From positions 1,922,001-1,986,000 of the forward strand of contig NZ_CP102381.1 of the NCBI RefSeq assembly GCF_029201445.1: a stretch of 64,000 nucleotides of DNA, written 5' to 3'. Below, piece after piece: positions 20,230-35,473 of the stretch. The notes under the pieces are model-generated. The model saw only the letters and a program-made list of their open reading frames with translations. It had not been told where the DNA came from and did no database searches. The DNA comes from Thiomicrorhabdus lithotrophica. GTDB taxonomy: Bacteria > Pseudomonadota > Gammaproteobacteria > Thiomicrospirales > Thiomicrospiraceae. The position numbers were made by a program, and so were the translations under genes. The stretch's first letter is position 1. The number at the start of each line of letters is the position of its first letter.

Positions 20230-20474
20230 TAGACAAACCTTGTTTTAATTTTATTTGAACGCGGCAAATGACCTGCTTCAACTAGGTCTTGACGATATTC
20301 ACGTAAATACTTTGAACGTAAACTTCTAAGCTCTTCATGTGAGAAATGCGAAATCTTTCGACCATTCATTTCTAACATTTGAATATCTTTACTGGCTTTG
20401 CCTTCTAGCACTAATTCAATTGCTTTTAGCATGCGACTAGCATGAGTATTTTCTAAGTCATAATCTAACGCCAT
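20229..20474 (-). CDS. gpW-type head-tail joining protein
   Basis: 81 aa. Two-helix protein with FSHEELRSLRSKYLREYRQDL and the C-terminal RSNKIKTRFV. It lies between terminase and portal, exactly the lambda W position, and overlaps both. gpW seals the head before tail attachment. Confidence 0.85.
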   Translation of the reverse strand: MALDYDLENTHASRMLKAIELVLEGKASKDIQMLEMNGRKISHFSHEELRSLRSKYLREYRQDLVEAGHLPRSNKIKTRFV

Positions 20475-22468
20475 GATGTTGCAAAGCTCCCTTTTTTACG
20501 TTTTCTGGTATTGCGTTTTTCTGACGCTTGTTCTGCATCATCCTCATTGGAACTAAATAGATCCACTTGAGAGAGTTTTTGCTCAATTTGGTTCCATGTT
20601 TGAGGCTTCCAAAGATGAACGCCTAAAGCACGAGCCGCATGTAGTGAATAGACTTCACAATCTAGCCCTTCTTCTGCCACCCCTGCTTTTGGTTGCCAGA
20701 TTTTTTTATTACGAATACTTCTATGCGGTGCTTTAACATTACTAGTGATTTGCTCATAGTAATCGGCACGCACATCAATATAGTTATGCATTCGTCCTGG
20801 ACCATTGCCTGACAATTGCATACGTGCATAAATCAAATCTTTGGCTTTATGTGTACCAACAATATAAGGACGCAAGCCGTATTTATCGGCCTTTGTATGC
20901 TTTCTACCTTTAGCATCTATTGAAGTTTTTGGTCGGCTAAAAATCTCACGGTTACCGTAATCATTTGAGGACCCTTTAATTGCCATCAATAACTGGAATT
21001 TCTTTTGGCGACGACGTACAAAGTCGTAAACTGCGTCTGACGTTGTTCCATCCGAACTATCAATTGAAACGGCTTGAATGCGAAACGACCAATCTTGAGC
21101 ATTGGTATAAACTTGAGTTAATAATGACTCTAAGCCATCCCAAACTTTGTCTGTTTTATCTACTGTATTGCCGTAAATCTCACCCCACCAAACCAGCCAA
21201 CTTTGCTCTTCACGACCCCATGCACGAATAATGATTGCCAGGCGATCATGCTGAACATCGACACCAGCCGTTAAAACCAAACCGCCTGCATGCACTATTT
21301 TCTCTGGATAATCGAGCGCTTTATCTTGCAGCACTTCTACATCCAAACGCTCACCTTCAAACTCATAAGGCAAACCTAGACACGAATTAGTAAAAACGAT
21401 TTGTTCGCTTTGGTCTCCACGGTCTGCCAGTGCTTGCGCTTTTAAGTAACGCTCCATCAGGCGTGCCATTCGGCTACCCTTCCAAGGAGCGTACAGTTCA
21501 TTGATGTAAAAACTGGCTACACCACAAAACTGTTTAGTCGCAACCCATTCGGCTTTTTGGACGTTTTGATTCTTTTGGTAATCATCCCAAACCGAACCAC
21601 ATGAAGGGCAAGCGTAGAATGTTCCGGCTGTATCAAAATGGCCGTAAAATTCATGCAATTCTTTATCAGGGTCTTCATTACAGAAAACGTTATCCCAACT
21701 TAGGGCATGACTTTCGCCACAATCGTGACATGGCACCATGAAATAGCGTTGGTCCCCGTCTAAAAAAGCCTTTTCAATATTGGATAAGCCTTTAATTGAT
21801 GGAGTACCACCAAATACAATCTTTGGATCGTCATAGGTTTTTAAACGCTCTTCTAAAAGCGTGATTGCATCACCTTGACCTGAAACGTTATCGCTTGCAT
21901 CGTCGGGCTCTTCAACAAAGGCTCTAGGTGATGGCGTAGATTTAACGTTAGATGGACTATTTGAACCCACGATTTTTAAAAAACCACCAGGGAAAGGAAC
22001 TCTATCCCAAGTTTGGCCGTTTTTTCTTGTGCTTAAGTTAACTAGACCACTTAGGGCGCGAGTTGCCCTAATCATTGGTGTTAGCTTTTCTTCTCTAAAT
22101 TCTTTTGCAGCTTTCTCTTTTGAGAACAACCCTATTACTGGTGATGGGTCTGTGTGGATGATTTTGCCAAGCCAGTTAAGAACGATAGTGGTCCATGCAA
22201 CCTGTGCTGGCTTCATCATGACGACCTTCCAACATGCTGGGTCGTCCATAGCATCTTGAATACCACGAATCCACGGAGTGAGTTCATCACTGAACTTACC
22301 AGGCCTGGCAGATTCTTCTTTTGATAGAACACGGTATTTTGTGGCCCATAATTTGGTTGCTACTGATTCGGATTGCTTCCATGCTGACAGAATGACAGAC
22401 TTAACTTTGTTCGTTGTCTTCTGAACCGTATCTTTCCAAATTGGATAATGTTCCTCGAATGAGTCCAT
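20465..22468 (-). CDS. Terminase large subunit, GpA family
   Basis: 667 aa. DNA-packaging motor. It has the GpA-type start of the ATPase (PWIRGIQDAMDDPACWKVV, MKPAQVAWTT), the acidic FVEEPDDASDNVSGQGD, paired cysteines in VPCHDCGESHALSW and YACPSCGSVWDD that look like a zinc site, and the nuclease part beginning LTAGVDVQHDRLAIIIRAWG. It overlaps the small subunit by 68 nt and gpW by 10 nt. Use of this family implies cos-type packaging. Confidence 0.95.
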   Translation of the reverse strand: MDSFEEHYPIWKDTVQKTTNKVKSVILSAWKQSESVATKLWATKYRVLSKEESARPGKFSDELTPWIRGIQDAMDDPACWKVVMMKPAQVAWTTIVLNWLGKIIHTDPSPVIGLFSKEKAAKEFREEKLTPMIRATRALSGLVNLSTRKNGQTWDRVPFPGGFLKIVGSNSPSNVKSTPSPRAFVEEPDDASDNVSGQGDAITLLEERLKTYDDPKIVFGGTPSIKGLSNIEKAFLDGDQRYFMVPCHDCGESHALSWDNVFCNEDPDKELHEFYGHFDTAGTFYACPSCGSVWDDYQKNQNVQKAEWVATKQFCGVASFYINELYAPWKGSRMARLMERYLKAQALADRGDQSEQIVFTNSCLGLPYEFEGERLDVEVLQDKALDYPEKIVHAGGLVLTAGVDVQHDRLAIIIRAWGREEQSWLVWWGEIYGNTVDKTDKVWDGLESLLTQVYTNAQDWSFRIQAVSIDSSDGTTSDAVYDFVRRRQKKFQLLMAIKGSSNDYGNREIFSRPKTSIDAKGRKHTKADKYGLRPYIVGTHKAKDLIYARMQLSGNGPGRMHNYIDVRADYYEQITSNVKAPHRSIRNKKIWQPKAGVAEEGLDCEVYSLHAARALGVHLWKPQTWNQIEQKLSQVDLFSSNEDDAEQASEKRNTRKRKKGSFATSWR
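22298..22309. repeat. Variant of the palindromic repeat (ACCAGGCCTGGC)
   Basis: One mismatch from the exact word, inside the terminase large-subunit gene. Confidence 0.6.
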
Positions 22469-33941: not shown

Positions 33942-34265
33942 ATGCAATCAGTAACCATGCTACAAAGCGACCTGCAAACCCTGCTAATTCAAGCCGCTAA
34001 CATTGGCGCACAACAAGGCATCGAGGCCGCTTTAAAAAACACTCAAACACAACCAGTCGTACCGCTGAATGTGCGTAAAAAAATACGCCTAAAACAAGTG
34101 CAAGAAATAACAGGCCTAAGCGAATCCTCTATTAGAAGACGCAACAACCCACAGCACCACCTATACGATGACACATTTCCAAAACCCTGCAACAACGGCA
34201 AAACCGTCATGTACTGGTTAGACGAAATCACCACCTGGAACGAACCACAAGCCCAAGAAGCATAA
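33942..34265 (+). CDS. AlpA-like DNA-binding regulator
   Basis: 107 aa, with AGGAGG upstream. The C-terminal half has RLKQVQEITGLSESSIRRRN, then FPKPCNNGKTVMYWLDEITTW, the excisionase/AlpA winged-helix pattern. It could act as excisionase or as a regulator of neighbouring genes; it is far from int, so excisionase is not certain. Confidence 0.75.
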   Translation: MQSVTMLQSDLQTLLIQAANIGAQQGIEAALKNTQTQPVVPLNVRKKIRLKQVQEITGLSESSIRRRNNPQHHLYDDTFPKPCNNGKTVMYWLDEITTWNEPQAQEA

Positions 34266-34286
34266 CAGGACCGGCATAAATGAAAT
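34263..34286 (+). repeat. 24-bp direct repeat, left copy
   Basis: Runs from TAACAGGACCGGCATAA through the methyltransferase ATG to GAAAT. It is identical to 35450-35473, which carries the start of the next gene. Confidence 0.85.
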
Positions 34287-35452
34287 ACCTAAGTCTATTC
34301 AGCGGAATTGAGGCCGTAAGCCAAGCATGGGAATCTTTAGGCTTTGAAGCACTCGCATTCTCACAATTTGACCCAGACCATAACTACAAAAACAGTCAAG
34401 ACTTTGCCAGCGCCGTACTCGCACACCATTACCCAAGCGTACCAAACCTGGGTGACGTAACTAAATTTAAAGAATGGGATGATTATGAACCAGACATCAT
34501 TGTGGGAGGAAGCCCCTGCCAAGCTTTCAGTATCGCAGGAATGCGAAAAGGAATGGATGACCCGCGTGGCAACCTCACACTTACGTATCTTGCCACTATT
34601 GAACGATATAAGCCACGCTGGTTTGTTTGGGAAAACGTGCCTGGAGTCTTGTCATCTAACGAAGGACGGGATTTTGGAAGCTTCCTTGCAGGGATTCAAA
34701 AACTCGGGTATGGGTTCGCCTACCGAGTGCTTGACGCTCAATACTTCGGAGTACCACAACGTCGAAGAAGAGTCTTTGTTGTCGGACATATTACAGACTA
34801 CAGACGTGCCGCAGCGGTACTATTTGACTCAAAAAGCTTGTCTGGGAATCATAAAAAGAGCAGAGGTCAGAGGCCGAAAGATACCAGCCAACTTGCTAAC
34901 TGCCTTACAGCGTCAAGCGGAAACCGTCAAGACCCCAGCACAGAAACCTACGTTATTGCCGGCAACACCATTGATCGAGAACCAGAGCACGGCGGCAATG
35001 GCTTAGGAATAGACAACAGCAGCATAACACCCACATTAACAGCCAATGACAAGCACGCAATATGCGCCAATACATCGCCAACCTTAACTTGCGAACCACC
35101 ATTCTCAAGAACAGGAAGCAGCAATGTAGAAACAGAAGCCATTGTCGCATTCAAAGTACGCGGAGGCTGTGAAGGCGGAGGCAAAGGCTATTTAGGTGAC
35201 AATAAAACAGCATTTACGCTATCAACACACCAAGACCAACACCTATACGACAACTACGCCACTAGAAGGTTAACACCAATAGAGTGCGAAAGACTGCAAG
35301 GCTTTCCAGACAACTACACGCAAATTACCTGGAATAATAAACCCGCTCAAGAATGCCCTGACGGACTTAGATACAAAGTAATAGGCAACTCAATGGCCGT
35401 ACCCGTTATGAAATGGATAGGCGAAAGAATCAAAATGGCAGACGAACTTTAA
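34280..35452 (+). CDS. C5-cytosine DNA methyltransferase
   Basis: 390 aa. Motif I SLFSGIEA (5-12), the catalytic GGSPCQAFS with C80, ENV (118-120) and VPQRRRRVF (158-166) are all intact. The target-recognition region is 180-330, and the final RRLTPIECERLQGFP and VIGNSMAVPV motifs IX-X are near the end. Probably protects phage DNA from host restriction. No restriction enzyme is nearby. A second long ORF in the +1 frame overlaps residues 67-242 (separate entry). The gene is bounded by 24-bp direct repeats. Confidence 0.94.
   Translation: MKYLSLFSGIEAVSQAWESLGFEALAFSQFDPDHNYKNSQDFASAVLAHHYPSVPNLGDVTKFKEWDDYEPDIIVGGSPCQAFSIAGMRKGMDDPRGNLTLTYLATIERYKPRWFVWENVPGVLSSNEGRDFGSFLAGIQKLGYGFAYRVLDAQYFGVPQRRRRVFVVGHITDYRRAAAVLFDSKSLSGNHKKSRGQRPKDTSQLANCLTASSGNRQDPSTETYVIAGNTIDREPEHGGNGLGIDNSSITPTLTANDKHAICANTSPTLTCEPPFSRTGSSNVETEAIVAFKVRGGCEGGGKGYLGDNKTAFTLSTHQDQHLYDNYATRRLTPIECERLQGFPDNYTQITWNNKPAQECPDGLRYKVIGNSMAVPVMKWIGERIKMADEL
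34479..35006 (+). CDS. Overprinted ORF inside the methyltransferase gene
   Basis: 175 codons without a stop in the +1 frame; ATGs at 34479 and 34485. The stretch HAGLFGKTCLESCHLTKDGI, GMGSPTECLTLNTSEY, SLLSDILQTTDVPQRYYLTQKACLGIIKRAEVRGRK resembles proteins I recall being annotated separately in phages beside or within C5 methyltransferase genes. It overlaps motifs IV, VI and VIII of the enzyme. A weak GGGATG precedes the second ATG. A real product is plausible but unproven. Confidence 0.5.
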   Translation: MIMNQTSLWEEAPAKLSVSQECEKEWMTRVATSHLRILPLLNDISHAGLFGKTCLESCHLTKDGILEASLQGFKNSGMGSPTECLTLNTSEYHNVEEESLLSDILQTTDVPQRYYLTQKACLGIIKRAEVRGRKIPANLLTALQRQAETVKTPAQKPTLLPATPLIENQSTAAMA

Positions 35453-35473
35453 CAGGACCGGCATAAATGAAAT
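35450..35473 (+). repeat. 24-bp direct repeat, right copy
   Basis: Identical to 34263-34286. It supplies the ribosome-site region and ATG of the small basic protein gene. Confidence 0.85.

Follow-up and report, generated by a model that had tools for sequence, protein, structure and literature searches.

Within the gene for a C5 cytosine DNA methyltransferase of Thiomicrorhabdus lithotrophica, the +1 reading frame almost certainly encodes a second protein and is not a chance open reading frame (ORF), as judged from sequence comparison; the nested product is probably the small subunit of a two-chain methylase. The gene lies in the 64,000-nucleotide stretch analysed here (the window; positions 1,922,001 to 1,986,000 of contig NZ_CP102381.1), where its locus is a prophage-like region; a phage terminase large subunit match is found in the same window (gene 20468-22468). 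The two overlapping features are as follows:

34280 to 35452, plus strand: C5 cytosine DNA methyltransferase, main frame, 390 amino acids, motifs I-X (PF00145, TIGR00675).
34479 to 35006, plus strand: predicted nested +1-frame gene of 175 codons with a TAG stop, beginning at ATG 34479 or possibly at ATG 34485.

The main frame matches PF00145 over residues 1-385 (E=2.4e-61) and TIGR00675 (E=8.4e-60), and it carries motifs I, IV, VI, VIII, IX and X in the order that defines a C5 methyltransferase; motif IX (RRLTPIECERLQGFPD) is thus encoded in the main frame. A structure model of the methylase is confident at residues 1-186 and about 330-390, and residues ~187-322 are predicted to be unstructured, beginning where the conserved core of the +1 protein overlaps; the alignment is shallow there. 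A 23-bp perfect direct repeat (AACAGGACCGGCATAAATGAAAT) is present at 34264-34286 and 35451-35473, and its copies carry the translation starts of the methylase and of the next ORF (35467), just beyond the methylase stop; the repeat may delimit a gene cassette that was inserted or duplicated. Elsewhere in the host genome, beyond the window, there is another C5 methylase match (G000 C1:1636740-1637813).

An earlier note on this DNA had described a 175-codon +1 ORF across motifs IV, VI and VIII; the coordinates confirm it, and both peptides that it quoted are present. The ORF spans methylase codons 67-242, which include motifs IV (GGSPCQ), VI (ENVPG) and VIII (QRRRRVF). From stop to stop, the +1 frame of the window gene is 181 codons long, a length reached by 0 of 200 synonymous-codon shuffles of this methylase (mean 59, sd 17). 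A homologous +1 ORF with at least 151 open codons is present in all 80 viral contigs sampled by the main-frame protein; because the alignment was seeded with enzymes whose match was known beforehand, the sample represents their clade and not C5 methylases at large. In the sampled relatives, the longest +1 open frame averages 167 codons versus 96 with within-gene synonymous shuffling, and the same shuffle revealed no excess openness in their other alternative frame. The earlier note had proposed looking for randomly placed +1 stops in homologues: codons 68-205 contain none across 81 homologues, where synonymous resampling predicts 1.7-3.9% per codon. By tblastn, 120 phage records match the +1 protein at E<=1e-5, and in each of the annotated phage and plasmid loci inspected that have the core within an intact methylase coding sequence, its offset from the methylase frame is exactly +1.

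Constraint on the overlap was measured in 81 genes as the fraction of pairs that use different synonymous codons for the same residue. This frame-0 synonymous difference is 0.64 outside the overlap (codons 1-60 and 325-385); inside it, the value is 0.46 for codons 68-145, 0.34 for 146-215, and 0.18 for 191-200. Unconstrained synonymous variation, which the earlier note had named as evidence against its idea, is therefore not what the overlap displays. In codons 181-205, frame-0 position 1 is more variable than position 3, a reversal of normal periodicity which argues that the +1 frame is dominant there:

34790 to 34894, plus strand: methylase codons 171-205, where +1 appears to be the dominant coding frame, with minimal synonymous variation and reversed codon periodicity.

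Amino acid identity in the +1 frame is 0.42, 0.59, and 0.69 in three successive blocks of the overlap versus a resampled null of 0.23-0.28, and control blocks outside the overlap have values near the null. It reaches 0.71-0.73 and exceeds frame-0 identity in codons 181-190 (0.59) and 191-200 (0.37). When scored with a hidden Markov model (HMM) of the +1 protein, real genes obtain 192-272 bits and synonymous-resampled genes 36-117 bits; because the shadow of frame 0 alone accounts for scores in the latter range, +1 matches confined to the N-terminal part were dropped as evidence. In homologues, then, the alternative frame is both open and under protein-level selection. The extent of this selection differs between clades. 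In 22 distant relatives, which include P1, P7, Vibrio, Caulobacter, Brevundimonas, Morganella, Streptococcus, Mycobacterium, and Ruminococcus phages, synonymous difference is 0.26 in the core versus 0.64-0.67 outside, whereas the N-terminal part (codons 68-130) is unconstrained at 0.63. What all clades share is thus the core of the +1 protein; constraint on the N-terminal extension is seen in the window's clade.

The putative nested gene is preceded by a candidate ribosome-binding site:

34469 to 34478, plus strand: weak stretch resembling a Shine-Dalgarno site, AAAGAATGGG, ahead of the nested start (clade consensus AAGGAGTGG).

In relatives from the window's clade, AAGGAGTGG is kept about 7 nt upstream of the start codon, and the codon found ~7 nt after TTTAAGGAGTGG is ATG in 68 and TTG in 30 of 123 rows. 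A Shine-Dalgarno match of at least 5 bases precedes a +1 start in 95% of genes vs 15% in the null, and the Lys and Glu codons that form it show a bias towards AAG and GAG (p about 6e-6 and 8e-6, respectively). The window's clade thus has conserved initiation signals, which are weak in the window's own copy and less clear in distant clades. Since the window's own version (AAAGAATGGG-ATG) is weaker, the choice between 34479 and 34485 as the exact start is uncertain. Conservation of the +1 protein, synonymous constraint, reversed periodicity, and this conserved internal ribosome-binding site together strongly support the earlier suggestion of two proteins under double constraint.

Two regions of the +1 protein stand out:

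34734 to 34913, plus strand: conserved core of the +1 protein, residues 86-145, present in all relatives and in the fusion described below.
34830 to 34931, plus strand: two-helix hairpin predicted by AlphaFold2, residues 118-151.

Residues L101, L105, G123, and R127 are invariant in 150 non-identical aligned homologues, and the core follows the pattern LxDxLExxxVPxRYxLSxKAC. The AlphaFold2 model has pLDDT of about 92-98 in blocks 121-150 and mostly <70 elsewhere. Searches of Pfam and NCBIfam with the +1 protein returned no family, and sequence and fold searches of the PDB returned nothing significant; the sole match in a viral fold library was a weak one to gp104 of Mycobacterium phage Thibault. 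The phage family phrog_16143, labelled DNA methyltransferase, matches 118 of 125 +1 proteins, and phrog_1008, with the same label, also matches +1-frame proteins. Thus, both families may include nested-frame gene calls annotated as methylases.

Members of the nested-gene family occur in P1/P7, T4-like, Vibrio, Caulobacter, mycobacterial, streptococcal, and gut phages. Scans of viral contigs with the +1 motif alone found 120 loci with KACxGILRRA and 120 with its AA-for-AC variant, and every one of the 240 overlaps a C5 methylase in the +1 frame. There are 534 plasmid matches, mostly in P1-like phage-plasmids; in phage P1 itself (AF234172), the +1 frame is open at 66710-67198, within dmt. Bacterial genomes rarely carry the nested gene: it was found in 4 of 369 from the window's class and 10 of 398 from its phylum, both counts including the window's own genome. 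In a catalytic-domain tree, 41 nested-gene methylases and one bacterial enzyme with a fused core (L173) form a single clade of 42 rows (SH-aLRT 99), and 22 ordinary C5 enzymes fall outside it. Three further loci (L452-L454, from Enterococcus phage 1_EF62phi, Streptococcus phage IPP48, and Clostridioides phage phiCD418) have a +1 ORF that is shorter, and whose core reads, for example, LSDILEEEVDERYFLS, in methylases on the ordinary-enzyme side of the tree; possibly these represent a second, independent frame switch.

A clue to function comes from ordinary C5 methylases that have no nested gene. These carry an in-frame segment after motif VIII (e.g., NTFEYPEPLTKQPTIADILEEQEVSVKYYLSNQ in L206 and LVDILEKDVDERYYLSEEKTRKL in L456) that resembles the +1 core. 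HMM-HMM comparison of the +1 core with the post-VIII segment gave P=1.5e-4, and 1.8e-5 against the segment alone, with hhalign probabilities of 52-78%; seven shuffled or reversed controls gave P of 0.01-0.7. The best single pair, the +1 protein of L453 and the L456 enzyme, shares 59% identity over 27 amino acids (E=1.1e-5 in a small set), and weak BLAST matches also arose from reversed queries (8 vs 23). Homology between the +1 core and the in-frame segment thus has moderate support from these comparisons. The +1 core overlaps the DNA of motif VIII, and the segment of ordinary enzymes lies about 20-30 residues past that motif; the mutational route from one to the other is unexplained. An origin by simple deletion was not adopted, since the start of the +1 core is encoded by motif VIII DNA itself.

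The core also occurs outside the nested arrangement. In the bacterial C5 methylase L173 (1480-2709, minus strand), it is fused in frame at the C-terminus, which matches +1 HMM positions 86-145 (E=4.6e-10), and this enzyme is nested in the clade beside those of phages ZF40 and Mm5 (SH-aLRT 96). A search of viral contigs with the L173 C-terminus found no further in-cis copies, leaving L173 as the one fusion found; another candidate for a same-ORF fusion, L248, was rejected because it looks like a double frameshift in the record. In phage Thibault (L181 1342-2850), an HNH gene interrupts the methylase, and the +1 core is the annotated 82-residue gp104. The methylase gene of Gordonia phage Ailee (L455) is likewise interrupted by an HNH endonuclease gene. 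The earlier note had likened the +1 translation to stand-alone proteins of other phages; this likeness did not hold, as the core was nested in a C5 methylase in every viral contig retrieved by its motif; the exceptions seen, outside that set, are the L173 fusion and the Thibault ORF. Its further idea, that one fold was born from the other's alternative frame, survives in part: the N-terminal part of the +1 protein looks overprinted, whereas the core (codons ~171-205) behaves as if +1-dominant and resembles a segment that other enzymes carry in cis.

We propose the following mechanism. Between motif VIII and the target-recognition region, ordinary C5 enzymes carry an in-frame element of the form FxFP...LxDILExxVDEKYYLSxK; the main frame of the phage clade lacks that segment, and its counterpart would be read from the +1 frame. 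Translation of the nested gene would start at a ribosome-binding site of its own within the methylase gene; motifs I-X would come from the main frame, and the element would be provided in trans by the nested frame. The small protein may then dock where the catalytic and recognition regions join, completing the enzyme, and nested translation would keep both chains together. We infer here translation of the product, complex formation, and a need for it in methylation activity. The subunit reading is favored because the core resembles a methylase segment, is fused to a methylase in cis in L173, is linked to C5 methylases at all 240 motif loci, and marks a single clade. Counted against it are hhalign probabilities that reach only 52-78%, the weak BLAST matches of reversed queries, the single fusion, the offset of the core relative to motif VIII with its unexplained mutational route, the unconstrained N-terminal part and less clear starts in distant clades, and the weak Shine-Dalgarno sequence of the window. 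A wider proposal is tentative, and we lean slightly away from it: a large and ancient clade of phage C5 methylases, including P1 Dmt, would consist of obligate two-chain enzymes whose cis element moved to the +1 frame and was rejoined at the C-terminus in at least one bacterial enzyme.

On the one hand, a real nested gene could have a job of its own, for example, as a regulator, an anti-restriction factor, or a host-takeover protein, and the differences in the N-terminal part between clades, as well as the separate annotated ORF of phage Thibault, are in keeping with such a role. On the other hand, viral contigs have the +1 motif only within C5 methylases, and the core is both fused to one in cis and similar to a methylase segment, which makes an independent job rather unlikely. 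The product could also arise by programmed ribosomal frameshifting near codon 165-170, yielding a longer chain with motifs I-VIII followed by the +1 core: the dominant frame changes near codon 170, a shift there would connect motif VIII with the core, and distant clades have no clear conserved start. In the window's clade, however, openness and constraint of the +1 frame begin at codon 68, and the frame is equipped with a Shine-Dalgarno sequence and a start codon, none of which frameshifting needs; we consider this route improbable. The view that no second protein exists, and that the +1 similarity merely reflects conservation in frame 0, biased codon use, or a conserved element in the RNA or DNA, is almost certainly wrong: resampled genes do score with the +1 HMM, but real genes score well above them, +1 stops are absent, an in-frame copy exists elsewhere, conserved synonymous sites are confined to the overlap and show a periodicity that fits a +1 code, and variation mainly at the +1 wobble base is not expected of an RNA element.

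The small-subunit reading has practical consequences. If this reading holds, assays of such phage methylases in which a recoded gene expresses the main frame alone would lack a needed part. The hidden gene is present in P1, which ranks among the best-studied phages, and in hundreds of phage and phage-plasmid records, and it is unrecognised as nested in the annotations inspected; likewise, no description of a nested gene in a phage C5 methylase was found in the openly licensed PMC literature. In addition, the locus offers an unusual and densely sampled setting in which to study how a protein segment can move between reading frames.

Among known systems, the E gene within D of phiX174 is likewise nested on the same strand in another frame, with double constraint on the shared DNA; in contrast, the nested product described here probably serves the enzyme of its host gene, and its family is spread over many unrelated double-stranded DNA phages. 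The bifunctional methylase of phages P1 (Dmt) and P7 (Dam) belongs to the same enzyme clade and carries the nested ORF, but it is fused to a Dam domain, and its annotation does not mention the nested ORF. The small chain of M.EcoHK31I (YGGCCR) is reportedly encoded in another frame within the large one. As compared by description, that small chain holds motif IX, whereas the +1 protein matches the post-VIII segment; since motif IX is in the main frame here, we regard M.EcoHK31I as a system that works in a like manner and not as a member of the same class. M.EcoHK31I, which is naturally two-chained, and M.AquI are C5 methylases made of two polypeptides (PMC3404938), and when C5 methylases are cut between motif VIII and the recognition domain, the two parts complement one another (PMC3404938, PMC5944983). 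In M.AquI (CYCGRG), the division falls within the variable region that follows motif VIII (PMC3404938); its chains are split end to end, with motifs I-VIII and part of the variable region in one and the rest with motifs IX-X in the other, whereas in the phage clade the gene for the putative second chain is nested within the first.
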